From: an uncultured Lachnospiraceae bacterium
GTDB taxonomy: Bacteria; Bacillota; Clostridia; Lachnospirales; Lachnospiraceae
NCBI GenBank assembly: GCA_947179245.1
Contig: CAMXBD010000024.1
Span: forward strand, 1-32,328
Direction of reading: 5' to 3'
Length of the DNA stretch: 32,328 nt
Both the position numbers and the translations under genes were made by a program. The notes beneath the pieces were generated by a model. The model saw only the letters and a list, made by a program, of their open reading frames with translations, ran no database searches and had not been told where the DNA came from. How positions within the stretch are numbered: position 1 is the stretch's first letter; the number at the start of each line of letters is the position of its first letter. Shown one piece after another: positions 12,781 through 24,518 of this stretch.

Positions 12781-13773
12781 ATGCGCGATAAACACCATCT
12801 TCTTGTATTGACTATATTAGTCATTATCTTCCTGACAGGATGCACCCACACAGCAGAACCTGTCTCGCAAGTGGGATTTTATCTTGATACAGTGGTACAG
12901 ATAACTTTATATGACACAGGAGACAGTGAATTCTGTATCAAAAATATTCAGGAGTGTTTTACACTGATCGACAATTACGAGCATCTATTCAGTGCGACAC
13001 TGGAAGGTTCCGACATATGGAACATTAACCATAGCGGCAGCAGAGGTGTAATTGTCTCTGATGATACTGTCAGCCTGCTTCAAACTGCCCTATACTACTC
13101 AGAACTTTCTGACGGCAAAGTTGACCTTACCGTTCTGCCTCTGAGCAGCTTGTGGAATTTCGGTTCAGAAGGCAGCTCACTTGTTCCTGACGATACTGAT
13201 ATACAGGAAGCCGTATCGCATATTGATTACCATATCGTTGAACTGGACGGCAATTTGGTGACGCTCACCGATCCCTATGCATCCATCGACCTTGGTTTCA
13301 TCGCCAAAGGATATATTGCCGACCGCCTGAAAGAATATCTTCTGTCACAGGGCGTAGAACATGCCTGCATCAGTCTGGGCGGAAATCTGATCACCATCGG
13401 CAATAAACCGGACGGACAGCCTTACCGCATCGGAATCCAAAAACCCTTTGCTGACGAAGGTGAGACCATTACGGCTATCGATGTGGCCGATTTTTCCGTT
13501 GTCTCTTCCGGTATCTACGAGCGTTACTTCTATGAAGATGATATTCTCTATCATCATCTCCTAGATACACAAACCGGCTATCCTGAGGACAATAATATAG
13601 CAGGTGTGACCATTCTGGCTCCCACCTCCACAGAAGCGGATGCCCTGTCTACCACCTGCTATTTTCTCGGCATTGATGCCGGCATGGAACTGATTGAATC
13701 ACTGGACGATACTGAAGCGCTCTTTATCACGAAGGATGGAACGCTCCATCGTACAAGCGGATTCCCGCAATAA
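12781..13773 (+). CDS. apbE: FAD:protein FMN transferase, ApbE family lipoprotein
   Basis: It transfers FMN from FAD to a Thr/Ser of target proteins such as RnfG and RnfD. The 330 residues start with a lipoprotein signal and lipobox LTGC (Cys21), placing it on the outer face of the membrane where the flavinylated domain of RnfG is exposed. Family motifs include FYLDTVVQITLYD, DLGFIAKGYIADR, SLGGNLITIG and the metal-site region DTQTGYPEDNNIAGVTI followed by STEADALSTT. The length is normal. Its likely substrates RnfG and RnfD are encoded about 8 kb away in this window and both carry the modification motif. A terminator follows. Confidence 0.95.
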   Translation: MRDKHHLLVLTILVIIFLTGCTHTAEPVSQVGFYLDTVVQITLYDTGDSEFCIKNIQECFTLIDNYEHLFSATLEGSDIWNINHSGSRGVIVSDDTVSLLQTALYYSELSDGKVDLTVLPLSSLWNFGSEGSSLVPDDTDIQEAVSHIDYHIVELDGNLVTLTDPYASIDLGFIAKGYIADRLKEYLLSQGVEHACISLGGNLITIGNKPDGQPYRIGIQKPFADEGETITAIDVADFSVVSSGIYERYFYEDDILYHHLLDTQTGYPEDNNIAGVTILAPTSTEADALSTTCYFLGIDAGMELIESLDDTEALFITKDGTLHRTSGFPQ

Positions 13774-13874: not shown

Positions 13875-13898
13875 TCGCCGCTGGGCGGCGATTTATTA
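13875..13898 (+). terminator. Rho-independent terminator of apbE
   Basis: A GC-only-rich stem TCGCCGC / GCGGCGA (13875-13881 with 13885-13891, loop TGG) is followed by TTTATTATA. A second perfect hairpin, GAGAATGC / GCATTCTC with a GAA loop (13849-13867), precedes it. Confidence 0.75.
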
Positions 13899-14921
13899 TA
13901 CCCGAACTTCTCCTGCCAGAACCTTCTTATAATCCTCCAGATTCTTCTGTAGCAGCGTCGGTGTATCCAAACCGTAAGGACACTTACTCTTACACTGATT
14001 ACAATGGATACAGTTCTCGATCTTCATCATCTTCTCCTGCCCCTCCGGGCTAAGATGCCCTGCAGACGGTGACCGTCTCAGAAGAAGTGACATTCTCGCA
14101 CAGTTGTTGATCTCGATTCCTGCCGGACACGGCATACAGTAGCCACACCCTCTACAGAAATCTCCTAGGAGTTCCTCTCTGTCACGGCGAATCACTTCGG
14201 CAAGCTCTTCCGTCATCGCCGGCGGATTATCAATATAAGATAAAAATTCATCCAGCTCTGCTTCTCTCTGTACACCCCAGATTGGAAGTACATTGTCATA
14301 CTGTGCCAGATAAGCATATGCCGCCGCGGAATTATTGATCAGTCCGCCGGACAATGCCTTCATGGCGATAAAGCCCATATCAGCCTTTTTACACTTATCA
14401 ACCAGCTCGATATCCTTATCCGTTGCCAGATAACAGAACGGAAACTGCAACGTCTCATACAGTCCGCTGTCAATTGCCTCATGCGCCACTGCCAGACGAT
14501 GATTCGTGATGCCGATATGGCGTATCTTCCCTTGTTCCTTCGCCTTAAGCGCCGCGTCATACAAGCCGCTCTCATCTCCCGGTTTCGGACAAAAAGCCGG
14601 ATTATGGAACTGATATATATCAATATGATCTGTTTTAAGATTGGTCAGACTGGTCTCAAGATCCTGCCAGAAACCTTCCGCATTCTGCGCCCCGGTCTTC
14701 GTTGCAATAAAAACTTTCTCCCGCATTCCTTCAAAAGCAAGCCCTACCTTATGCTCACTATCCGTATACCATCTCGCCGTATCAAAAAATGTAATTCCAT
14801 TCTCGTATGCTTTCTTAAGCAGATGCACCGCCTCATCATCGGTTATCCGCTGAATCGGTAATGCGCCAAAAGCATTTTTATTCGTTACTATCTCTGTTTT
14901 ACCAAGTCTGACTGTCTCCAT
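13896..14921 (-). CDS. Aldo/keto reductase with C-terminal [4Fe-4S] ferredoxin domain
   Basis: It is an aldo/keto reductase-fold oxidoreductase of unknown substrate. From the chosen start there are 341 residues. The barrel contains FDTARWYTDSEHKVGLAF (catalytic Asp/Tyr region) and IATKTGAQ (Lys), and HIDIYQFHNPAF. The C-terminus carries two Cys clusters, CRGCGYCMPCP and CIHCNQCKSKCPY, each fitting a [4Fe-4S] site, so electrons may come from or go to ferredoxin. The ATG at 14921 is preferred over the upstream frame start because AAGGGGTG lies just before it, directly after the preceding stop. It follows the zinc-ribbon gene by 13 bases and is the last gene of the kinase/phosphatase cassette. 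Confidence 0.88.
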   Translation of the reverse strand: METVRLGKTEIVTNKNAFGALPIQRITDDEAVHLLKKAYENGITFFDTARWYTDSEHKVGLAFEGMREKVFIATKTGAQNAEGFWQDLETSLTNLKTDHIDIYQFHNPAFCPKPGDESGLYDAALKAKEQGKIRHIGITNHRLAVAHEAIDSGLYETLQFPFCYLATDKDIELVDKCKKADMGFIAMKALSGGLINNSAAAYAYLAQYDNVLPIWGVQREAELDEFLSYIDNPPAMTEELAEVIRRDREELLGDFCRGCGYCMPCPAGIEINNCARMSLLLRRSPSAGHLSPEGQEKMMKIENCIHCNQCKSKCPYGLDTPTLLQKNLEDYKKVLAGEVRV

Positions 14922-14934
14922 ACATTCACCCCTT

Positions 14935-15294
14935 CTATATATCATTGCCCGACCCAAAGCCGGAACCGTCATATTTTCCCAGCGTACCGGTCAGCCCACA
15001 CCAGTTACATGTAAATTTACCGGCACCTCCGTTATGACAGCTCAATTTTCCACAGTTGCAGACAACAAAATCCATTGTTTTGCAATAGGGACATCCCGGA
15101 TAGCCGTCATCCGGTACAAGATTGCCGACAATCTTTGTTTTGTCATAATTTTCCCGCTTTGCAGATGCTTCCTTTACCGGAAAAGCCCATGTATATTTCC
15201 AGCTGTCTCCCAGCCTTTCAAAACGTACTCCATATGTTCTTCCGCCTTCTTTACACTTACACAGTGCAATTCGGGCTTCCATTTTTTCAGCCAC
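14935..15294 (-). CDS. TerY-C-like zinc-ribbon protein
   Basis: The 119-residue protein has a C-terminal cysteine array: CPYC (68-71), CNCGKLSC (79-86) and CNWCG (96-100), preceded by a conserved-looking WKYTWAFPV strand. This resembles the TerY-C metal-binding domain that is normally fused to the end of TerY vWA proteins; here it is a separate gene. The tail is Gly/Ser-rich. I place the start at GTG 15294 because AAAAGGAGG lies six bases upstream; the longer frame begins at a TTG before that ribosome site. It follows the PP2C gene by 36 bases. Family assignment is by visual resemblance. Confidence 0.72.
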   Translation of the reverse strand: MAEKMEARIALCKCKEGGRTYGVRFERLGDSWKYTWAFPVKEASAKRENYDKTKIVGNLVPDDGYPGCPYCKTMDFVVCNCGKLSCHNGGAGKFTCNWCGLTGTLGKYDGSGFGSGNDI

Positions 15295-15330
15295 GGCAAT
15301 CCTCCTTTTCAAAGTACGACACCGGCAGTA

Positions 15331-16164
15331 TCACTCACAATTCCGACCATCGTAATAGGCAAAAAGCGCCGTAATATCATCTCCGCATCCTAACTCGCTC
15401 GTTTCACTAAGCCATGTTTTCAGATGATCGGACACCACCTTTACTCCGTGCTCATTAAGCATTGTATAGTAATCGTTACAAGTCTTTCTAAATTCATCGT
15501 CATTTGTGAAGCTGTTTGCTAATCCATCTGAGGAGAGCATATACATAACAGGCTGCTGCTCATCTTCTTCCTCTTTTTTCACAAAAGTGATCACCTTTTT
15601 CCATGACTCTGCCTTACTGAGCGAATGCGTCTCCGTCCCCAGAATTTTATCCGCCTCTATAATATTCTGTACGCCCGTCTTAGACACTTTTACAATATCT
15701 CCGTCGCCAAGCTGGAAGGCAAAAAGAAATTCATTTGTGATTACAAGTCCCAGAAGTGTGCTGCCATACATCTTATAGATTGCTTCTTTATCTTTATTGT
15801 TTTCCGCATCCAGAATTACTTCCCGTTTGCAGTTGGCATGAATCTTTAATATTCTGCGCTTCCATTCAGCATCGATTGCCTGTGCCACTTTCGTATCGCC
15901 TTCACGTTTCAGAAACGTCATAAGAAGCTCCGGCTGTCCGTCGTAAGTTTCCAGATAGTCGCCCAGAATTTTGCAAAATACATTCACCGCCACATAGGAG
16001 CCGGTCTTACTGTACGGGCAGGAATCACTTCCATGTCCGTCTGCCACCGCCAATATGACTGTGTTTTCGTTCTTTTCCACCTTTTTCAAGCTGTCCTGAC
16101 ATTCTCTGCCCATTCTGATATGGGATGCTCCCTGCACAGATTCCCCGAATACACTTCGTATCAT
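15331..16164 (-). CDS. PP2C-family Ser/Thr protein phosphatase
   Basis: It should remove phosphate from Ser/Thr of proteins, presumably opposing the kinase of the same cassette. From ATG 16164 it has 277 residues. The PP2C motifs are present: motif 1 QGASHIRMGRECQDS, the metal-site AVADGHGSDSC (41-45 for ADGHG), a central GSTLLGLVI strand, LSSDGLANSF and the final metal Asp pair GCGDDITALFAYY. This ATG is chosen over the upstream TTG because AAAGGA lies eight bases before it. The gene starts 14 bases after the vWA stop. No membrane segment is visible, so it is cytoplasmic. Confidence 0.92.
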   Translation of the reverse strand: MIRSVFGESVQGASHIRMGRECQDSLKKVEKNENTVILAVADGHGSDSCPYSKTGSYVAVNVFCKILGDYLETYDGQPELLMTFLKREGDTKVAQAIDAEWKRRILKIHANCKREVILDAENNKDKEAIYKMYGSTLLGLVITNEFLFAFQLGDGDIVKVSKTGVQNIIEADKILGTETHSLSKAESWKKVITFVKKEEEDEQQPVMYMLSSDGLANSFTNDDEFRKTCNDYYTMLNEHGVKVVSDHLKTWLSETSELGCGDDITALFAYYDGRNCE

Positions 16165-16178
16165 ATGCAACGTCCTTT

Positions 16179-16901
16179 CTACCAAACATCACCTTCCTGA
16201 ATGTCATCAAGATCAGGGATTCTTCCGCCCATGTCCACGATTACCGGATTTGCGCTGCCATCTCCGGCTGTCCCTTCATCGTCCATTGCAACGCTCGCGG
16301 GCGCTGAAACAAGAGATGCAGCAGTAGATGCCCACTTGATCATCTTCGTGAGCGCCGCCGCATTGTTCGCCTGCAAAACCAGCTCTTTATTTCCTGTAAA
16401 CTCTTCCAAAACGTCATCGTCCGCATCCTGTCCGATAGAAATTGCTATCTTTACGGCTTTCTTTCCCCATGGAAGTTTTTTGAGTTCCGCAAGTGATTTC
16501 TTATAATCATCTGTAGGCTGTCCATCTGACAACAGCACCAATACGGGCGGTAACGCTCTGTCTGACATTGGCGGAATTGTAAGCTGCGCCGATAAAAGTT
16601 CAAATGCCTTCCCTAAATCTGTTACACCTTCCGCTTCCAAGTCATCCCATGCAAAATCTTCCACATTTACCGGACTGCTCGTCACCCATGACGCGCCCGT
16701 GGAAAACTTTAAAGTACGGATCAAAAGCTGGGCATTCGGATTATTCTCCGCCGCCGAAACCATCTCTGGTATTGTTGACTGAATCGCATGATTCACCGTA
16801 CCGATCTTCTCACCAAACATGGAGCCGGAACAGTCCACGATCCAAAAGAAATGTAAAGGTCTGCTCGCCAGTTCTCCTCCCGGTCTTTTCAGTCCTGACA
16901 T
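16179..16901 (-). CDS. TerY-like von Willebrand factor A domain protein
   Basis: It is a metal-ion-dependent binding protein of the TerY type, probably a scaffold or ligand sensor for the kinase and phosphatase. The 240 residues have an intact MIDAS: DCSGS at 23-27, Thr94 in EGVTDLG and Asp126 in LLSDGQPTDD. After the vWA fold (about 15-195) comes an Ala/Ser-rich then acidic tail ending in PDLDDIQEGDVW. The zinc ribbon usual for TerY is absent and appears as a separate gene two positions downstream. A strong AAGGAGG begins right at the stop of the preceding LRR gene, 12 bases apart. Confidence 0.9.
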   Translation of the reverse strand: MSGLKRPGGELASRPLHFFWIVDCSGSMFGEKIGTVNHAIQSTIPEMVSAAENNPNAQLLIRTLKFSTGASWVTSSPVNVEDFAWDDLEAEGVTDLGKAFELLSAQLTIPPMSDRALPPVLVLLSDGQPTDDYKKSLAELKKLPWGKKAVKIAISIGQDADDDVLEEFTGNKELVLQANNAAALTKMIKWASTAASLVSAPASVAMDDEGTAGDGSANPVIVDMGGRIPDLDDIQEGDVW

Positions 16902-16913
16902 AGTATTTCCTCC

Positions 16914-18101
16914 TTAATATCGTGCGCTCGCACATCTAATTTGTTGTGTTCTGGCATACTGCATTGCATAAGAGCCAGCATTGCATAAAATAGTAAGGTC
17001 TTCCCGCCTTTCCTCAGGTTCCCCGAATGTCTGCAGGAATCCGTTTCCTCCTTTTCCGCCGCCGATTTCCACTACGGAATCCGGTATATAAATGCTTTCC
17101 AGATTTTTACATCCTGCAAAAGCGCCTTCTTCGATGCTCATCACACCCTCCGGCAGATCAATGTTTTTTATCGATTCACATCCTTCAAACGCCGATATTC
17201 TGACAGCTTCCAAGTCTCGCGGAAGTACCACTTCCTCAAGACTTTTGCACCATTGAAAAGTACTCTTGTGAATCTCCTTTAGCTTAGGCGGAAGCACGGC
17301 TTTTTTCAGTTTCCCGCAGCCTGCAAAGGTGTTCTCACCAACATATCCTACACGATCCGGTATCTTGATACTCTCTAAGGCAGTATATTCAAAAGCGCCT
17401 TCCAGCTTGGTCATACTGCCTAGTATTGCCGGACATCCCGTCGGGTCTGTCGTTCCGATACGCCTCAAAGTGCTCGGCAAAACCGCCTCTTTGAGCCTTT
17501 TACAGTTCAAGAACACCCCATTCCCCAGAACTTCTATCCCTTCTGAAATAATGATCTGCTCAATTCCGACGCATCCTTTGAAAGCATGATTCCCAACCGC
17601 AATCACTTTTTTCCCTTCTATGACATTGGGAATGACTACAACGTCCTCATCAAAATCGACAAACTTCAGAATCTTAAGCCCTCGCGGTGTTTCTTCACAC
17701 TCGTATAAACTGTCGCTGTCAACTGCCTCCCATTCTTTCACGCGCTCATCTTCCGCCGCTCTCTCCTCCGGCGCGCCGCCATATCTAGCAGATGGCATAT
17801 TATTATCCAGCTGCAGTCCCATTGCCTGCGCCCACGTAAACACCGCATTCTCTGCATTTCTCGTCCTTATGCCATATCCCTGCTCAACAGACTTAACAAA
17901 CCGATGCATCACGATCTGGTCCATCTGCGTCAGCCCTTTCATCTCCGTTACGATGCCGTCGTCAAATACCATCAACAATGTATTTCTTTTAAGCCTGTCC
18001 TGCGGAAAATAATCCGAGAATAAAGCATGCAGTTTCTTTCTCTCCGAAAGAGCATCCGGATAATCCTGTATGATTTTTGCTAGAACTTGATAGTCTTCCA
18101 T
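16914..18101 (-). CDS. Intracellular BspA-type leucine-rich-repeat protein
   Basis: The 395 residues lack a signal peptide. Residues 1-98 form a helical-looking domain (YPDALSERKKLHALFSDYFP, then FDDGIVTEMKG and WAQAMGL) that I cannot name but which reads as a distinct module. After a charged linker, residues about 140-345 hold about seven LRR_5 repeats of roughly 23 residues with the pattern I-xx-AF-x-GC-x-L-xx-I-x-LP. The end, ILCNAGSYAMQYAR, is typical of BspA repeat tails. BspA LRR proteins are mostly secreted; a cytoplasmic copy between a kinase and a vWA protein suggests a partner-binding or substrate role (inference). It starts 48 bases after the kinase stop with a weak ribosome site. 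Confidence 0.88.
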   Translation of the reverse strand: MEDYQVLAKIIQDYPDALSERKKLHALFSDYFPQDRLKRNTLLMVFDDGIVTEMKGLTQMDQIVMHRFVKSVEQGYGIRTRNAENAVFTWAQAMGLQLDNNMPSARYGGAPEERAAEDERVKEWEAVDSDSLYECEETPRGLKILKFVDFDEDVVVIPNVIEGKKVIAVGNHAFKGCVGIEQIIISEGIEVLGNGVFLNCKRLKEAVLPSTLRRIGTTDPTGCPAILGSMTKLEGAFEYTALESIKIPDRVGYVGENTFAGCGKLKKAVLPPKLKEIHKSTFQWCKSLEEVVLPRDLEAVRISAFEGCESIKNIDLPEGVMSIEEGAFAGCKNLESIYIPDSVVEIGGGKGGNGFLQTFGEPEERREDLTILCNAGSYAMQYARTQQIRCASARY

Positions 18102-18149
18102 AACTAATCTTCCATAAAATAATCTTCTTTTCTTGATCAGCCTGCTCTG

Positions 18150-19448
18150 TTAATGAAACTCTCCTGTCAACTGTCCAAAATCAATCTTCGTATCTTTGGC
18201 AATCGCCGCTGAACGTCCTTCCGTTACAGGAATCTGCGTTCCATCCGCTTTGATATATGTCCAGTTATCCTTTGTCAGATTTCTAATCCCCCAAAGATTC
18301 GGGTTATTCGGATTCTGTACCACTTCTCCTGCCACGGTTTCCATATCATGCCCACCGTCTATATGATGTCTGTAAATCTTCGTATTAGCCATAAGCAGTA
18401 TTGTGCTTCTGCCGATCACAAGTTTAGATGGAACAGGCACCGGTTTCTGGCAATTCCAGCATGTATGCATAACACCGCTTGCTTCTTTGTGTTCATCGTA
18501 AAATATCTCCGAACCGCAGCTTGGACAGATCATTATCCCTGACATAAGATTGACGAATGTTTCCAGCCATTTACTTTCTGTTATTCTCCGGTTAGGCTGC
18601 TGTAAACCTACCGTAAATGACACCGTAAACAATTCTTTTAACTGCTGCGGATACAGATCCCAGAAAATAAGCGCATTATCCTGATATCCGGCAAGCGGAC
18701 GATTGTCCTTATTGTCCGAATCAAAAATAAACAATGGGTCTGTTCCGTATAACTTGTTCATCGCATGAATATCCATACATTTAATCTGTGCTTCCCGTCT
18801 GCCCTCCAGCGGGTGATTCAGCATAAACATATAAAACAACAGCACCGCCAGTGAAAACAAATCTGTGTTTCTGGAAGGTTTCGCTTTACCTGTAACGATT
18901 TCTGGTGCCATAAACCGGGGCGTTCCATAAATACCGGTTTTCGCCCCGTTATAAGAAACATTATCATTATCGCATATGAGTACCTCTCCCGTATCCGGAT
19001 CAAAAAAAACATTACCGAAAGAAATATCCCGATAGCTGTAGCCCTTTCCATGCAGTGCATTGTACCCTTTGGTCAGGTTATAAGCAGCCTTACACAGACA
19101 GTAAAAAGACGGCTCCGCCTTTCTTTTCATCATATCCACAATGCTTTTATAATTCTTCGGCCGAAGCGGCATAATATAGCCAAAAGACTCGCCATATGAT
19201 GTAAAAATCATATCCTGCGGCCACAAAAAAGAGGTGTCCGGCGGTCCACTCTGAATCAGATTATCCAATATTTCTTTCTGATTCTTAGTCGCGGTATTTT
19301 TATAATACCATTTCAGTGCATATGTTTTGTGATTGGCAATTACTGAATACACTTCACCCTGCCCGCCGGCTCCTAACAGCTTATCAACCATATATTTGTT
19401 ACCGCTTTCAGAGATAAGAGTTGTTCCGCTCTTTAACTGTCCATCCAT
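18150..19448 (-). CDS. Ser/Thr protein kinase with zinc ribbon and FHA-like C-terminus
   Basis: It is a eukaryotic-type protein kinase with no membrane segment. In 432 residues: Gly-rich loop LGAGGQGEV (25-33), ATP Lys46 (YALKWY), catalytic loop YRDISFGN (139-146, Tyr replacing the usual His), metal site DND at 160-162 in place of DFG, and APE at 181-183. All strictly catalytic residues (Lys46, Asp141, Asn146, Asp160) remain. A zinc ribbon follows (CPSC 308-311, CWNC 330-333). Residues about 340-425 (LVIGRSTILL through WTYIKADG to KIDFG) resemble an FHA fold by eye. GAGAGGAG lies before ATG. The gene starts 15 bases after rnfB and heads the cassette. Confidence 0.9.
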   Translation of the reverse strand: MDGQLKSGTTLISESGNKYMVDKLLGAGGQGEVYSVIANHKTYALKWYYKNTATKNQKEILDNLIQSGPPDTSFLWPQDMIFTSYGESFGYIMPLRPKNYKSIVDMMKRKAEPSFYCLCKAAYNLTKGYNALHGKGYSYRDISFGNVFFDPDTGEVLICDNDNVSYNGAKTGIYGTPRFMAPEIVTGKAKPSRNTDLFSLAVLLFYMFMLNHPLEGRREAQIKCMDIHAMNKLYGTDPLFIFDSDNKDNRPLAGYQDNALIFWDLYPQQLKELFTVSFTVGLQQPNRRITESKWLETFVNLMSGIMICPSCGSEIFYDEHKEASGVMHTCWNCQKPVPVPSKLVIGRSTILLMANTKIYRHHIDGGHDMETVAGEVVQNPNNPNLWGIRNLTKDNWTYIKADGTQIPVTEGRSAAIAKDTKIDFGQLTGEFH

Positions 19449-19463
19449 AAAAAAGCTCCTCTC

Positions 19464-20255
19464 TTAGATGATTACTTTCTTCGGGCACTTCTCCTTACAT
19501 GTACCGCATCCGGTACACTTCTCCTGATCGATCGTCGCATGGAAATCTTCAATCGTGATCGCATCTGCCGGACAATTTCTCTTACACAACTGACAGGCGA
19601 TACATCCCACGTCACATGCCTTGATCGTAGCCGGGCCTTTCTCTTTGGAACTGCATGCAACCACATGTTTCGCATCATAAGGAATCAGCGTGATCAGATT
19701 CTTAGGACATACGGCGATACATTTGCCGCATGCTTTACAAGCCTCTTTGTCTACTACTGCCACGCCGTTTACCACGTGAATAGCGTCAAAAGGACACACT
19801 TTAACGCAGCTTCCAAAACCGAGACATCCGTCATTACAGGATTTCGGACCACCGTTAGGTACAAATGACAACATACGGCAGTCTTCGATGCCAGTATAAT
19901 CGTAGTCCATTCTCGTACGTTCCCTGTCACCCTGACATCTGACAAAAGCAACCTGACGCACACTGTCACCAGCCTCTACGCCCATAATCTTCGCAATCTG
20001 ATTACCGACTTTCTCACCGCCTACCGGACAGGCATTCACAGGAGCCTCCCCCTTAGCAATCGCCGCCGCCAGACCAGAGCAGCCTGCAAAACCGCATCCG
20101 CCGCAGTTATTACCCGGCAGGACGCCTAATACCGCTTCTTCTTTTTCGTCCACTTCCACTTTAAATTTGATACCGGCAATGCCCAGAAACAGCCCCACAA
20201 ACAATCCCACTGCTCCTACAATCAGCGTTGCCGTCAATATTCCGGTCACACTCAT
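19464..20255 (-). CDS. rnfB: Rnf complex subunit B, polyferredoxin
   Basis: It carries electrons from reduced ferredoxin into the Rnf complex. The 263 residues have an N-terminal membrane anchor (about 7-29), then a Cys cluster CGGCGFAGC with Cys76 (51-76) for the RnfB-type [4Fe-4S], then four ferredoxin-type clusters: CNDGCLGFGSCVKVCP, CKACGKCIAVCP, CDVGCIACQLCKRNCP and CTGCGTCKEKCP. It is the last rnf gene, 98 bases after rnfA with a repeat element between, and 15 bases before the kinase gene. Confidence 0.97.
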   Translation of the reverse strand: MSVTGILTATLIVGAVGLFVGLFLGIAGIKFKVEVDEKEEAVLGVLPGNNCGGCGFAGCSGLAAAIAKGEAPVNACPVGGEKVGNQIAKIMGVEAGDSVRQVAFVRCQGDRERTRMDYDYTGIEDCRMLSFVPNGGPKSCNDGCLGFGSCVKVCPFDAIHVVNGVAVVDKEACKACGKCIAVCPKNLITLIPYDAKHVVACSSKEKGPATIKACDVGCIACQLCKRNCPADAITIEDFHATIDQEKCTGCGTCKEKCPKKVII

Positions 20256-20294
20256 ATTCTTACCTCACTTTATATAAAATTGTACCGAATCATC

Positions 20295-20349
20295 CGAGTT
20301 TGCAAAGATGCGCAGCATCGCAGGCAATATCTCGTAATTAAGTTTTGCT
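20295..20349. repeat. Intergenic repeat copy B between rnfA and rnfB
   Basis: Core CGAGTTTGCAAAG at 20295-20307, then a small hairpin GATGC/GCATC (20307-20319), CTCG pairing with the initial CGAG, and AATTAAGTTTTGCT at 20336-20349, the inverted form of the second block of copy A. In the mRNA this lies between rnfA and rnfB, where a folded element could influence relative expression. Confidence 0.6.
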
Positions 20350-20353
20350 CAAT

Positions 20354-20932
20354 TTATAGTAACCCTGAGAATCCACAGAAGGCAATCGCCATCAATCCCG
20401 CTGTGACAAGGACAATCGGCATACCCTTGAAAGATTCCGGTATATCATTATAGGTCATCTTCTCTCTGATACCTGCCAGAATAACGATAGAAATTGTAAA
20501 TCCTACCGCTGTGGCAAATCCGTTCACGATTCCGGTTCCGATACCATAATTCTTCTGTACGTTAGTGAGCGCCACACCGAGCACAGCACAGTTGGTCGTG
20601 ATAAGCGGCAGATATACGCCCAGCGACTGATACAGTGACGGAATAAATTTCTTTAAGAACATCTCCACAAACTGTACCAATGCCGCTATGACAAGAATAA
20701 ATACGATTGTCTGTAAATATGTAATGTCCAAAGGCACTAATATATATTTATAAATTGCACCTGCTACCGCCGAAGCCAGCGTAATAACAAATATGACAGC
20801 CACGCCCATACCCGTTGCCGTATCGGTCTTCTTGGATACTCCAAGGAACGGACACAAGCCAAGGAACTGACTTAGCACTACATTATTGACCAGTGAAGAT
20901 GAAATCAAAATTACCAGTAATTCTTTAACCAT
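20354..20932 (-). CDS. rnfA: Rnf complex subunit A, integral membrane protein
   Basis: It is a membrane subunit of the ferredoxin:NAD+ oxidoreductase and with RnfE holds the intramembrane iron-sulfur site. From ATG 20932 it has 192 residues, six membrane segments, and the conserved SSSLVNNVVLSQFLGLCPFLGVS with its Cys and the second half-repeat LITTNCAVLGVAL. The later ATG is chosen because AAGGAGG abuts the first ATG directly but is nine bases from this one. It overlaps the rnfE stop by 8 bases. Confidence 0.96.
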   Translation of the reverse strand: MVKELLVILISSSLVNNVVLSQFLGLCPFLGVSKKTDTATGMGVAVIFVITLASAVAGAIYKYILVPLDITYLQTIVFILVIAALVQFVEMFLKKFIPSLYQSLGVYLPLITTNCAVLGVALTNVQKNYGIGTGIVNGFATAVGFTISIVILAGIREKMTYNDIPESFKGMPIVLVTAGLMAIAFCGFSGLL

Positions 20933-21647
20933 TCTTCTCATCCTCCTTCGTCACTTTTTCGTCGTATAGTCTGTGCGTACATCCGCTGTCGGAGCAGTTC
21001 ATACAATCCGAATTACAGCCGGATTGAATCTTAGACATATCTTTGCCCTTCTTCTCTCCGTTAATCTTCACTTTATTCTGAATCGCCGTCAGAAGCGCCA
21101 GCACGAAAAATGCTCCCGGCGCCATGATAAAGATACTTACCGGAACAAAGCTTTCAGGCATCACGTGGATTCCGAATAATTCACCCGCGCCCAGCAGTTC
21201 GCGCACCGCACCGATACAGGTAAGCGCCACCGAGAAACCAAGTCCCATACCGATTCCGTCAAACAGAGACGGCAGAACGGGATTCTTATAGGCATATGCC
21301 TCCGCACGCCCCAGAATAATACAGTTTACAACGATCAGCGGAATATAAATTCCCAACGCATCATACAGGAATGGCAGGAAACCTTGTAATAATAGTTCCA
21401 CCACCGTCACGAAGGAGGCAATAATTACAATAAACGCCGGAATACGTACTTTATCCGGTATGATATTTCTAAGTAAAGAAATGAAAACATTACTCAAAGC
21501 AAGCACTACCATCGTAGTAAGTCCCATACCCAGTCCGTTTATTGCCGAGGTCGTAACCGCCAGTGTGGGACACATCCCAAGCATCAATACAAATGTAGGA
21601 TTTTCTTTTATAATACCATTGACAAGACGTTCTTTTGCACTATTCAT
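20925..21647 (-). CDS. rnfE: Rnf complex subunit E with cysteine-rich tail
   Basis: It is the membrane partner of RnfA. From ATG 21647 (preceded by GGGAGGAGG at a good distance) there are 240 residues with six membrane segments and the conserved NPTFVLMLGMCPTLAVTTSA and IPLIVVNCIILGRAEAYA motifs. After the last membrane segment it has a soluble tail with four cysteines in the pattern C-x3-C-x2-C-x4-C (Cys211, 215, 218, 223) and an acidic end. The tail is not needed for the basic fold and may bind metal. It overlaps rnfG by 8 bases and rnfA by 8 bases. Confidence 0.95.
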   Translation of the reverse strand: MNSAKERLVNGIIKENPTFVLMLGMCPTLAVTTSAINGLGMGLTTMVVLALSNVFISLLRNIIPDKVRIPAFIVIIASFVTVVELLLQGFLPFLYDALGIYIPLIVVNCIILGRAEAYAYKNPVLPSLFDGIGMGLGFSVALTCIGAVRELLGAGELFGIHVMPESFVPVSIFIMAPGAFFVLALLTAIQNKVKINGEKKGKDMSKIQSGCNSDCMNCSDSGCTHRLYDEKVTKEDEKNG

Positions 21648-22248
21648 TACCACTACCTCCTCCCAATTTCGTCTGGAAATAGTATAAACCTGCATTGACT
21701 CCATTAGTCACTGCATTCGTGGTGATTGTAGCACCGGAAATCGCATCAATCTGGCTCTCCGATGTAGCACCACTCTTAGTATACTCAAACTTTTCTACTT
21801 GTTTATCAGCAAACTGCGGTTTCAATACTTCCTCTGCCCGCATACCAAGACCTGCCGTCTCCGAAATGGAAAGAATCGATATCCCATTCACTGTGCCATC
21901 CATACGGATGCCGATGGAAAACTGTATGTCTCCGCCGTATCCTTCCTTAGTCGTCACTGTGATCACATATCCCAGCAGATTACCGGATGCATCCGCTGCG
22001 CTCATCACTTCGTCGATGCTCTCCTGTGCATATCCGGCCTCTGTCCATCCGGCATCATCTGCCATCTCAACTTCCATTGTCTCAAAAGCTGCCGCATCCT
22101 GAAAGACTTCCTGACATGCCTCCTGCTTTGCTTTCGCTTCCTGTTGGGCAATAGGGTCTTTTGTAATCTGGTATACAAAACCGAGTACCAATCCGGCAAC
22201 GATTGTGATTGCCAGCATGATTCCTGTGTTTTTCATCATTTCTTTCAT
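21640..22248 (-). CDS. rnfG: Rnf complex subunit G, covalent-FMN subunit
   Basis: It carries covalently bound FMN on the outer side of the membrane. The 202 residues start with a membrane anchor (about 9-28), then an FMN-binding domain with GYVITVTTKEGYGGDI, the SETAGLG motif and the flavinylation motif DAISGATITT, in which Thr174 should receive FMN from ApbE. The ATG overlaps the rnfD stop (ATGA), with AAGGAGG inside the end of rnfD. The apbE gene is present in the window. Confidence 0.96.
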   Translation of the reverse strand: MKEMMKNTGIMLAITIVAGLVLGFVYQITKDPIAQQEAKAKQEACQEVFQDAAAFETMEVEMADDAGWTEAGYAQESIDEVMSAADASGNLLGYVITVTTKEGYGGDIQFSIGIRMDGTVNGISILSISETAGLGMRAEEVLKPQFADKQVEKFEYTKSGATSESQIDAISGATITTNAVTNGVNAGLYYFQTKLGGGSGNE

Positions 22249-23177
22249 GCTTTTTCTCCTCCTTTACCAAATGCTTTCGGAAGAGTGATCTTCTCAATAA
22301 GCGGCACCAGTAAATTGCCGATGATGATCGCGTAGGACACTCCCTCTGAGGAAGGTCCGAACAGACGGAAGATTCCTGTCAGAATACCAAGCAGGATGCC
22401 AAAGAGATACTGACCGTTCTTGGTAATCGGTCTTGTCACATAGTCTGTCGCCATAAAGAAAGCGCCAAGCATCAGACCACCTCCTGCCAGATGTGCGGAA
22501 ATATATGCCGCATCCAGCCCGTGACCACCGAATATACTGATAAAAATCACGAAGCTTACTATGTAACTTCCGGGAATGCGGAGATCAATTATACCCGTTA
22601 AAATCAAGAAGCAGGCGCCAATCACGATTGCAATCATGGAAGTCTCTCCTATCGTTCCCGCAGTTTTGCCTATCACCATATTCAGGATATTCACATCCAC
22701 GCCGCTCTTTAAGTCAGCAAGCGGAGTTGCGCCGGTATAAGCATCACAATCAAAATTAGTCATAATAGAAGTAAAAGAGATCAACAGAAAACATCTCGCT
22801 CCGAGAGCCGGATTCATGAAGTTCTGACCAAGCCCTCCGAATAACATCTTGACTACCAGAATCGCGAAAACGCCGCCAACAACGCCGATCCACCATGGTG
22901 CGGATACCGGAAGATTCAGCGCCAGCAGAAGTCCTGTCACCACCGCCGAATAATCTTCGATCGTTACTTTTTTCTTACATATTTTTTCAAAAACAAACTC
23001 GGTCAGCACTGTGGTCACCACAGTAATCACGATCGTGATTAATGCCTTTAAACCGAAATTATAAATTCCGAATCCCGCCGCCGGAAGAAGGCCAATCACT
23101 ACAGCCAGCATAATATTGCTTGTTCCTGTCTTGGACCTGACGTGGGGATTGGAAGATACTTTCATTAAGTCACTCAT
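22245..23177 (-). CDS. rnfD: Rnf complex subunit D, membrane subunit with covalent FMN
   Basis: It is the multi-spanning membrane subunit thought to couple electron transfer to ion movement. The 310 residues include SSNPHVRSKTGTSNIM at the N-terminus, the conserved GGLGQNFMNPALGARCFLL segment, and a flavinylation motif TGAT (148-151) where Thr151 is the expected FMN site. It starts 24 bases after rnfC and is coupled to rnfG by a 4-base overlap. Confidence 0.96.
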   Translation of the reverse strand: MSDLMKVSSNPHVRSKTGTSNIMLAVVIGLLPAAGFGIYNFGLKALITIVITVVTTVLTEFVFEKICKKKVTIEDYSAVVTGLLLALNLPVSAPWWIGVVGGVFAILVVKMLFGGLGQNFMNPALGARCFLLISFTSIMTNFDCDAYTGATPLADLKSGVDVNILNMVIGKTAGTIGETSMIAIVIGACFLILTGIIDLRIPGSYIVSFVIFISIFGGHGLDAAYISAHLAGGGLMLGAFFMATDYVTRPITKNGQYLFGILLGILTGIFRLFGPSSEGVSYAIIIGNLLVPLIEKITLPKAFGKGGEKA

Positions 23178-23201
23178 ATCCTTATTTGTGCTCCTTTCTT
23201 C

Positions 23202-24518
23202 CTACTTTTTCTTCTTTGCAAGCTGTATTTTACGCATGGATTTGATTGACTGTGTCAGCGGACGCTTTGCAGGACAAACGAAACTGCAGCAGCCACATTC
23301 AACACACTCCAAACCGTCAAGCGCCAAAAATTCTTCTTCTGCATAATTTTGTGCGTAAACCGCCAATTTGTTCGGAACCAGACGGCTTGGACACGCTTCA
23401 ACGCACCTTCCACACTTAATGCATGCACTTGGTTCCATCCGGGATACATCATCCTCGGTCAGACAAAGAAGCGCCGATGCCGTCTTTGTCGTTGGCACAT
23501 CAAGATCAAAAATACCGAATCCCATCATAGGCCCGCCGGAAACAATTTTGACAGGCTCTTTCTTAAAACCTCCTGCTTCCTCGATCAGTTCATGATAATT
23601 AGTACCGATTCTCACAATGAAATTACGTGGATCAGTCACTGCATCACCTGTCACGGTCACAATACGATTCATAAGCGGTTTGCCTTCATAAATGGCATGA
23701 TAGATTGCTACGATGGTGTCCACATTGTTTACCACACATCCAGCATCTGCTGGAAGCATCGATGAATTGATTGCCCTGCCTGTAGTCGCATAAATGATCT
23801 GTCGTTCTGCCCCCTGCGGATACTTAGTCTTCAGCGCCTTGACGCTGATACGAGGCTCATCTTTTGTGAGTTCTTTTAATTTCTCTATACAATCAGGTTT
23901 GTTATCTTCTACAGCCAATATACCTCTGGCATTCTCAAAAAGCTGCAAAGAAACCTTTAATCCCTTAATCAGTTTCTCCGGCTCTTCAAGCATTCTTCTG
24001 TAATCAGATGTAAGATAAGGCTCACATTCCGCACAGTTAGCGATCACATAATCAATCTTATCCGGTTCCTTCGGTGAAAGCTTGATAAAAGTCGGGAAAC
24101 CTGCGCCGCCCATACCGACAATTCCGGCTTCTTTGATCCTCTCTATAATCTCTTCTCTGGACATCTCCTCTAGCGGCTTTACTTTCGGATACTCTACTTC
24201 TTCATACAGTCCGTCATTCTCGATAATAATGCTCATCACATTATCGCCGGTAACTACACGTCTCGGCTCAATCGATTTAACAGTACCCGATACAGTCGCA
24301 TAAATCGGCGCAGACACGAATCCTCCCGCCTCTGCGATCTTCTGTCCGGTCAGTACATGATCTCCTTTTTCTACGATTGGTTTTGCAGGTGCTCCAATAT
24401 GCTGCGATAACGGATATACCAGATCACCTTTTGGCAGTACAGCTTTGATAGGCTTATCCTTAGACAATTCTTTACCGTCATAGGGATGAATACCGCCTTG
24501 AAATGTTCGTTTTGCCAT
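23202..24518 (-). CDS. rnfC: Rnf complex subunit C, NADH-binding iron-sulfur subunit
   Basis: It is the cytoplasmic subunit that reduces NAD+ with FMN and two [4Fe-4S] clusters. From ATG 24518 (AGGGGCGGA just upstream) it has 438 residues. It starts TFQGGIHPYDGKE, has a biotinyl/lipoyl-like region with GTVKSIEPR, the nucleotide-binding GIVGMGGAGFPTFIKL and ANCAECEPYL motif, and two C-terminal clusters CIKCGRCVEACP and CVECGCCSFVCP. It is the first rnf gene, giving order C-D-G-E-A-B as in clostridia and acetogens. Confidence 0.97.
   Translation of the reverse strand: MAKRTFQGGIHPYDGKELSKDKPIKAVLPKGDLVYPLSQHIGAPAKPIVEKGDHVLTGQKIAEAGGFVSAPIYATVSGTVKSIEPRRVVTGDNVMSIIIENDGLYEEVEYPKVKPLEEMSREEIIERIKEAGIVGMGGAGFPTFIKLSPKEPDKIDYVIANCAECEPYLTSDYRRMLEEPEKLIKGLKVSLQLFENARGILAVEDNKPDCIEKLKELTKDEPRISVKALKTKYPQGAERQIIYATTGRAINSSMLPADAGCVVNNVDTIVAIYHAIYEGKPLMNRIVTVTGDAVTDPRNFIVRIGTNYHELIEEAGGFKKEPVKIVSGGPMMGFGIFDLDVPTTKTASALLCLTEDDVSRMEPSACIKCGRCVEACPSRLVPNKLAVYAQNYAEEEFLALDGLECVECGCCSFVCPAKRPLTQSIKSMRKIQLAKKKK

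Follow-up and report, generated by a model that had tools for sequence, protein, structure and literature searches.

A TerY-P-type kinase-phosphatase module inserted into the Rnf operon in a genus of gut Lachnospiraceae has relatives in phage-defence operons

When a set of signalling genes directly follows an operon for energy coupling, the question arises whether the two belong together in function. An uncultured Lachnospiraceae bacterium presents such a case in a stretch of 32,328 nucleotides (nt), here called the window, which is contig 24 of a 3.4-Mb draft genome that is 88% complete. In this window the genes for the ferredoxin/NAD+ energy-coupling complex, rnfCDGEAB, run on the same strand into genes for a Ser/Thr kinase, a leucine-rich repeat (LRR) protein, a von Willebrand factor A (vWA) protein, a PP2C phosphatase, a zinc protein with a TerY_C domain and a [4Fe-4S] aldo/keto reductase (AKR). 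A previous reading of the sequence alone (hereafter the sequence-only reading) had interpreted the run as a phosphosignalling module tied to Rnf. However, in 29 of 30 cassette-free rnf loci of the same genus that extend beyond rnfB, the AKR gene is next to rnfB. The plain operon is therefore rnfCDGEAB-AKR, and the five genes kinase-LRR-vWA-PP2C-TerY_C are therefore an insert between rnfB and AKR. We consider it rather probable that this insert is a defence-derived TerY-P module and not a regulator of Rnf, and it probably uses the expression of the Rnf operon rather than controlling Rnf. As the sequence-only reading had described, the layout comprises 12 open reading frames (ORFs) on the minus strand; these are listed below together with the first junction of the insert and a convergent neighbour. 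RnfC, RnfD, RnfG and RnfB all score above the cut-offs of their TIGR models.

23202..24518, minus strand: rnfC (TIGR01945, 511 bits; PF01512, PF13375)
22245..23177, minus strand: rnfD (TIGR01946, 278 bits)
21640..22248, minus strand: rnfG (TIGR01947, 121 bits)
20925..21647, minus strand: rnfE (named by order and homology; start read by eye; seen in the compared rnf loci)
20354..20932, minus strand: rnfA (named by order and homology; start read by eye; seen in the compared rnf loci)
19464..20255, minus strand: rnfB (TIGR01944, 115 bits against a cut-off of 68.7; ferredoxin domains)
19449..19463, minus strand: rnfB-kinase junction of 15 nt, left edge of the insert (compared across 27 further named loci)
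18150..19448, minus strand: Ser/Thr kinase with Cys4 zinc ribbon and all-beta C-terminal domain (PF00069)
16914..18101, minus strand: adaptor-LRR protein (LRR_5 PF13306, BspA-type LRR; domain of about 90 residues at 17814-18083 by the adaptor profile)
16179..16901, minus strand: stand-alone vWA protein with full metal-ion-dependent adhesion site, MIDAS (VWA PF00092)
15331..16164, minus strand: PP2C phosphatase (PP2C_2 PF13672, 123 bits; start read by eye)
14935..15294, minus strand: TerY_C zinc protein, right edge of the insert (PF15616, 43 bits against a cut-off of 28.4; start read by eye)
13896..14921, minus strand: [4Fe-4S] AKR, gene of the plain Rnf operon (PF00248 Aldo_ket_red and PF13534 Fer4_17)
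12781..13773, plus strand: ApbE family protein, convergent neighbour (PF02424, 273 bits)

The distribution of the module was assessed by searching for vWA (counted as present at E below 1e-30) and rnfD in 98 genomes, 60 of which, including the window's own, belong to the same genus. Module counts were taken from tblastn; the simple gene picker used for the locus rows mislabels some of them (e.g. L045, L049, L064 and L088). The module is present in 34 of the 60 genus genomes: behind rnfB in 24, elsewhere in eight (G004, G009, G011, G013, G018, G025, G054 and G055) and at an unresolved position in two, since a contig break falls exactly at the junction in G002 and the copy in G019 is a contig-end fragment of undecidable position. 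Apart from this fragment, the vWA protein of the other 33 is 86-100% identical over nearly its whole length. In 23 of the 24 rnf-site genomes a single contig carries both the vWA match and the rnfD match, separated by about 5-7 kb; G026 was counted through locus L036, whose contig begins within rnfG. Gene order as such was read in 26 named loci and L150, not in each genome singly. Two close vWA copies were found in no genome (G018 and G027 have a second, weak match of 30-32% identity). Of the 26 genus genomes without the module, 24 have rnfD (G001 and G051 gave no match). These 24, together with eight genomes in which the module is elsewhere or fragmentary, provide 32 empty-site rnf loci. Among the 30 that extend beyond rnfB, only L119 has a gene other than AKR next, namely ApbE. 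The distance from rnfB to AKR in cassette-free loci is 13-413 nt, the longest (L116) containing an intervening 78-amino-acid ORF. The sequence-only reading was thus right about the adjacency of AKR but not about its membership in the cassette, since AKR follows rnfB where no cassette exists; we therefore rejected AKR as a cassette gene. Within the rnf-site clade, AKR is found in 24 of 29 named loci (28 with rnfB on the contig); it is missing from L037, L056, L086 and L101, and the contig of L041 ends too early to judge. Further downstream, the stretch from AKR to the ApbE and GH25 genes varies in gene content (L046, L047, L048, L055, L057, L061, L062, L068 and L104), which suggests a hot spot for insertions downstream of the Rnf operon.

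The junction itself is tight. The gaps are 15 nt between rnfB and the kinase gene, 48 nt between kinase and LRR, 12 nt between LRR and vWA and 13 nt between the zinc protein and AKR; the vWA-PP2C gap is 14 nt to an ATG read by eye (17 in the automatic ORF call), and the gap from PP2C to the zinc protein is 36 nt to a GTG behind AGGAGG (45 to a later codon in the automatic call). ORF coordinates thus bear out the 15-base junction and the 12-48 base gaps given in the sequence-only reading. The junction contains the ribosome-site-like GAGAGGAG and, again as had been claimed, no minus-strand terminator-like site; over the 12.4 kb scanned, terminator-like sites were about as frequent as expected (9 found versus 8.9), and no Rfam element scored above its gathering score in the scanned DNA. 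The genes upstream overlap, but rnfA and rnfB are separated by 98 nt (window 20256-20353) holding a hairpin-like repeat and a promoter-like match (9/12) at 20306-20279. Therefore, rnfB and the module could form a sub-operon of their own, although promoter-like matches are frequent by chance (32 found versus 23.5 expected). The rnfB-kinase junction is more than a chance arrangement, because 27 further named loci share it with the window; in these 28 loci the spacer measures 15-285 nt (median 39). Several of the longer spacers contain elements of their own when read by eye: palindromic elements in L036, L053, L061, L068 and L104 (for example AGTACTTCT...AGAAGTACT and GAGAATGCC...GGCATTCTC), another repeat common to L056 and L086, and in L063 (207 nt) what seems to be a coding region for a small, roughly 60-residue membrane protein.

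A tight junction in 28 loci is what would be expected if adjacency meant function, i.e. if the module sensed redox or metal state and modified Rnf or its partners. The retention of the rnf position by 24 of 34 genus carriers, the Fe-S domains of AKR and RnfB/C, and the TerY_C domain and zinc ribbon, which could bind metal, also fit this idea. On the other hand, 24 genomes of the genus have Rnf without any module, and the histories of the two gene sets disagree.

These histories were compared with a tree of concatenated Rnf proteins (60 genus rows and 3 outgroup rows) and a tree of the cassette. Before the approximately unbiased (AU) tests, cassette rows L088, L149 and L151 and rnf rows L148, L134 and L135 were dropped, leaving 60 rows in the rnf test. 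It should be noted that the rnf trees carry row L144 (G002) as rnf-adjacent although the contig end hides its junction; its cassette contig is L060. The rnf-adjacent rows are scattered over the rnf tree, requiring at least 5 changes, and a single clade of them is rejected (AU p 1.4e-85). In the cassette tree, all rnf-site copies, together with L039 and L040, whose context is unseen, form one branch (95*) apart from the copies behind an ilvA-like gene (90; described below). Grouping these ilvA-site copies with the window's clade is rejected by the cassette data (AU p 9.6e-5), whereas the rnf tree sets the ilvA-site genomes close to that clade (93, not starred). The cassette data likewise reject a grouping of L037/L039 with L041/L101/L056/L086 (AU p 3.5e-4). 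The clearest conflict is L037, whose cassette belongs with the window's clade (99*) and whose rnf genes are placed far from that clade (p 4.4e-57), both on one contig. Since cassette and rnf trees conflict, the module has moved laterally; it has either passed between species into the same slot or been exchanged there by recombination. Vertical inheritance of a single insertion as the whole story was rejected by the AU tests.

The occupation of the same slot in species distant on the rnf tree raises the question whether the module is a mobile passenger, spreading by recombination between conserved flanks with little benefit to the host. The variable gene content further downstream and the recombinase gene beside one relative are consistent with this. 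That relative (L040:711-7962) is a module copy without LRR and adaptor on an 8-kb contig, located beside genes for a serine recombinase and BlaI/BlaR1-like regulators, and is perhaps carried by a mobile element. However, active sites are intact in essentially all copies and the ratios of non-synonymous to synonymous substitutions (dN/dS) are far below 1, so that we regard a mere passenger as very improbable.

The module has a second site in the genus. In the clade where it lies elsewhere, the order is FtsY-like signal recognition particle GTPase, PLP/ACT-domain threonine dehydratase-like enzyme (ilvA-like) and kinase, with YitT and GH25 genes next; owing to the limits of the gene picker this order is clear in most, not all, rows. 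The ilvA-like gene and the kinase gene are 42-136 nt apart (nine rows, two being duplicates). These copies consist of kinase, LRR, vWA and PP2C, and none has a recognised TerY_C (0/10).

Relatives outside the genus keep different company. The named loci are the best 80 of 92, and 38 of them, in stretches of 3-21 kb each, lie outside the genus. BrxL, a protein of bacteriophage exclusion (BREX) systems, is encoded in 11 of the 38, always upstream and on the same strand, and a giant PDC-S37/Hhe-like helicase-nuclease in eight; one or the other is present in 18. Neither was found in the 82 other loci (4 rnf loci of other families and 78 genus loci including duplicates). A random gene would be expected to have BrxL within 10 kb only about 0.2 times over 38 genomes of about 3.5 Mb with one BrxL each. 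The typical order is BrxL, LRR, 170-amino-acid protein, kinase, vWA, PP2C, TerY_C and transglutaminase-like protein; the L099 contig shows the series helicase-c40-BrxL-LRR-170-aa-kinase-vWA-PP2C-TerY_C-transglutaminase. The protein of about 170 residues (c20 family; L070:7517-8041) has no Pfam match and is encoded near the kinase in 18 of the 38 outside loci and in none of the 82 others. Outside neighbours seen at single loci include PglZ, PtuAB-like, GajB-like, Schlafen-type and TmtA-like proteins.

For several of these loci the association extends to whole BREX systems. Of the 11 BrxL loci, 6 also encode PglZ, upstream of BrxL and with contig and strand in common; in a further one, L070, a partial PglZ match stands where the stretch begins. 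Of three upstream regions scanned, two contain BrxA, BrxB, BrxC and PglX and one contains BrxC and PglX; the scan covered ten proteins, and BrxA and BrxB of the third region were not among them. L164 (contig of L079) and L167 (contig of L076) thus represent full type-1 BREX, with BrxA, BrxB, BrxC and PglX identified by PADLOC plus PglZ and BrxL, the latter called by similarity to the BrxL of L070, which PADLOC scores at 1137 bits. In L164, L165 and L167, taken with L079, L087 and L076, Clostridia type-1 BREX operons run past brxL into module genes: LRR-adaptor, the 170-amino-acid protein (in most), kinase, vWA, PP2C, often TerY_C, and a transglutaminase-like gene. This series is perhaps an undescribed extension of BREX. 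No description of it was found in literature searches with incomplete listings, and one may still exist; a term search of a BREX survey (PMC12839542) found neither 'TerY' nor 'leucine-rich', its vWA passage concerning MoxR systems.

The company of rnf, by comparison, ends at the genus. The neighbourhood survey that the sequence-only reading had proposed finds adjacency to rnfB recurring in 24 of the 34 genus carriers, but there are no rnf genes in the stretches around any of the 38 outside loci, nor near the module in five loci from other genera of the family (one duplicates a named locus, the L099 contig). Outside the genus the cassette is thus found away from rnf, the very outcome named beforehand as speaking against a phosphosignalling tie to Rnf. 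Together with the copies behind ilvA, the discordant trees and the relatives in BREX operons, this makes a redox- or metal-sensing regulator of Rnf improbable; moreover, a term search did not find 'Rnf' in the main text of a C. difficile phosphoproteome paper.

The proteins themselves fit published TerY-P triads, as had been proposed, by combining a kinase with Cys4 ribbon, a PP2C, a MIDAS-type vWA and TerY_C. The ribbon cysteines of the kinase (C308, C311, C330 and C333) are kept in 75 of 75 loci with a kinase match, and a predicted structure model also backs the ribbon. A second look at this model (VIA-align) gave alignments mostly over residues 9-316, with little of the C-terminal beta domain, which at a guess is FHA-like or OB-like. 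The MIDAS of the vWA protein (D23, S25, S27, T94 and D126) is intact in 29/29 rnf-site, 10/10 ilvA-site and 38/38 outside loci (77/77 in all); calling this protein 'TerY-like' relies on gene company and TerY_C, as no TerY-specific vWA model was found. The metal-site Asp of PP2C is conserved across the compared loci, and a sequence search for PP2C relatives in the PDB gave none at 0.001. TerY_C (PF15616), a metal-binding domain often listed with TerY, is a separate ORF and the single match in the genome; by similarity it occurs in 25 of 29 loci of the rnf-site clade (not in L041, L056, L086 and L101), in 0 of 10 of the ilvA-site clade and in 14 of 38 outside loci. TerB, TerC and TerD gave no match among the scanned window proteins, a subset of its ORFs, in keeping with their reported absence, and neither did BrxC, PglX or PglZ among the six cassette and AKR proteins (PADLOC) or the Pfam-scanned proteins.

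The module genes are under purifying selection, with median dN/dS values of 0.03-0.11, the LRR gene being the fastest inside the module (0.11). Its speed alone is no sign of an arms race, because the neighbouring ApbE and GH25 genes are equally fast (0.109 and 0.103). ApbE attaches flavin to RnfD and RnfG. Purifying selection would also be compatible with a domesticated switch for general (envelope, oxidative or metal) stress that kept the triad but plays no part in defence against phages. At the locus neither a nuclease nor BrxL nor another effector was found, and C. difficile Ser/Thr kinase mutants are more sensitive to tellurite (PMC9674922), a precedent for kinases only. Yet the patchy presence and lateral movement of the module resemble those of an accessory system and defence genes accompany 18 of 38 outside relatives, so that we judge such a stress switch unlikely.

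A further link to the outside relatives is provided by the N-terminal ~90 residues of the LRR protein, the adaptor domain, which has no convincing match in Pfam (45 members, best E 0.026) or the PDB (best E 0.27). With a profile built from 18 genus sequences, the domain was detected in 31 of 38 outside loci, situated N- or C-terminally in LRR proteins or in the c40 protein beside the helicase-nuclease. Among the ten adaptor proteins examined, other partners were DEAD or UvrD helicases, ankyrin, Sel1/RpoA-CTD, TPR, WD40 and FGE-sulfatase, and no fusion to a core component (kinase, vWA or PP2C) was seen. The adaptor is present in 37 of 39 genomes with vWA (all 34 genus carriers plus G060, G084 and G085, but not G074 and G097) and in 0 of 59 without; the Fisher value of 5e-25, uncorrected for kinship, overstates the evidence because the genomes are related. 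L077, L089, L092 and L099 contain several adaptor copies and the window's genome contains one. Since it tracks the module so closely, the domain is usable to find further cargo.

Several published systems resemble the module. TerY-P is described in PMC11090510, with reference to Anantharaman 2012 and Gao 2020, as a triad with a zinc-ribbon Ser/Thr kinase that partners restriction-like systems, and stand-alone antiphage variants are cited. It shares with our module a MIDAS vWA, a PP2C, a kinase fused to a C-terminal zinc ribbon, the TerY_C domain and the habit of accompanying defence-type systems as an accessory. Here, however, TerY_C is a separate ORF, an adaptor-LRR protein is added, the site is an Rnf operon, and Ter or CoCoNuT genes were not recognised. 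In the GAP1-N2 systems of PMC7159879, a kinase with zinc ribbon and beta-rich domain stands beside PP2C and a lone vWA, the same three-protein architecture, but those systems are actinobacterial and GTPase-centred; GAP1 was not recognised here and the LRR-adaptor is extra. T7SSc (PMC11217815) likewise combines kinase (TscD), vWA (TscE) and PPM phosphatase (TscF) in one cluster, but its kinase has a transmembrane helix and the cluster serves type VII secretion, genes for which were not recognised here. For type-1 BREX the likeness is one of position, with module relatives directly behind BrxL in 11 of 38 outside loci; the window locus has no BREX gene, its genome has no BrxL_N match and the module itself is not BREX. 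The effector-associated domains (EADs) of PMC7159879 are, like the adaptor, small domains of no known enzymatic family at the N- or C-terminus of variable cargo, multi-copy in some loci. Unlike them, the adaptor is single-copy in the window's genome, homotypic binding would be conjectural for it, and the 45-member Pfam scan (best E 0.026) lists no EAD, with the proviso that whether every EAD has a Pfam model is unchecked. KKP (PMC11341870), a toxin-antitoxin-like phage-defence module, is a precedent for kinase-phosphatase defence and serves here as a working analogy only: it is accessory and opposes kinase with phosphatase, but has two kinases, is prophage-borne and is described, in the part available, with no mention of vWA, LRR or TerY_C. 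A literature search for rnfB together with PP2C found no paper. Related quartets also occur on plasmids: Prevotella pE2-28 carries TerY-C, kinase, vWA and PP2C consecutively. vWA matches were obtained for 2274 of 72,556 plasmid records, mostly enterobacterial (about 31% identity among the matches listed); these may be TerY proteins of ter operons.

Our best reading is that the module descends from defence operons, or is common to them and this genus, and has been parked here behind housekeeping operons. In this reading, a five-gene TerY-P-type module (kinase-ZnR, adaptor-LRR, vWA, PP2C and TerY_C) has entered between rnfB and AKR. Many of its relatives make up the 3' part of phage-defence operons, behind BrxL (some in whole type-1 BREX) or beside a giant helicase-nuclease. 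The genus loci lack this DNA-attacking part; there the module follows a housekeeping operon, either rnf or, in another clade, ftsY-ilvA, and is most likely transcribed from the host operon's promoter. The LRR protein, encoded by the least conserved module gene, might sense an insult such as a phage or damage product, and the adaptor domain might dock it to the kinase/vWA/TerY_C core. The activated kinase would then phosphorylate cell proteins and stop growth, and PP2C would hold the kinase off or reset the switch. Taken by itself, this detailed switch is doubtful.

Several observations weigh against a defence origin and parking. Retention of the rnf position by 24 of 34 carriers is more than a mere parking place would demand, and the ApbE and GH25 genes evolve as fast as the presumed sensor. 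PADLOC gave no match for the vWA, PP2C, LRR and zinc proteins (whether it contains TerY-P models is unchecked) and partial kinase-domain matches only for the kinase (best MAD6, 63 bits); PADLOC names were therefore rejected for the window proteins. Neither BrxL nor the helicase-nuclease is present in 20 of the 38 outside loci, although six of the 38 stretches are shorter than 7 kb. The window's genome, at only 88% completeness, gave no BrxL_N match, and the module as part of BREX in this genome was rejected. The vWA protein is rare in the family (7 of 250 genomes, two of these in the genus).

A bolder combination, in which the ~90-residue docking domain defines plug-in systems and the Rnf-wired kinase acts on energy coupling to de-energise infected cells, seems quite improbable. 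If the plug-in idea were true, a conserved kinase-vWA-PP2C(-TerY_C) core would serve interchangeable adaptor-tagged cargos, among them BREX-linked LRR proteins, helicases, helicase-nuclease partners, WD40, TPR and FGE. Under the favoured reading of a defence-derived insert, a tempting story of redox signalling shifts towards defence biology. The locus also warns against inferring function from operon adjacency, as insertion site, empty site and likely donor context are all visible, and it draws attention to Clostridia type-1 BREX operons to which a kinase-phosphatase module and an as yet unnamed adaptor domain are attached.

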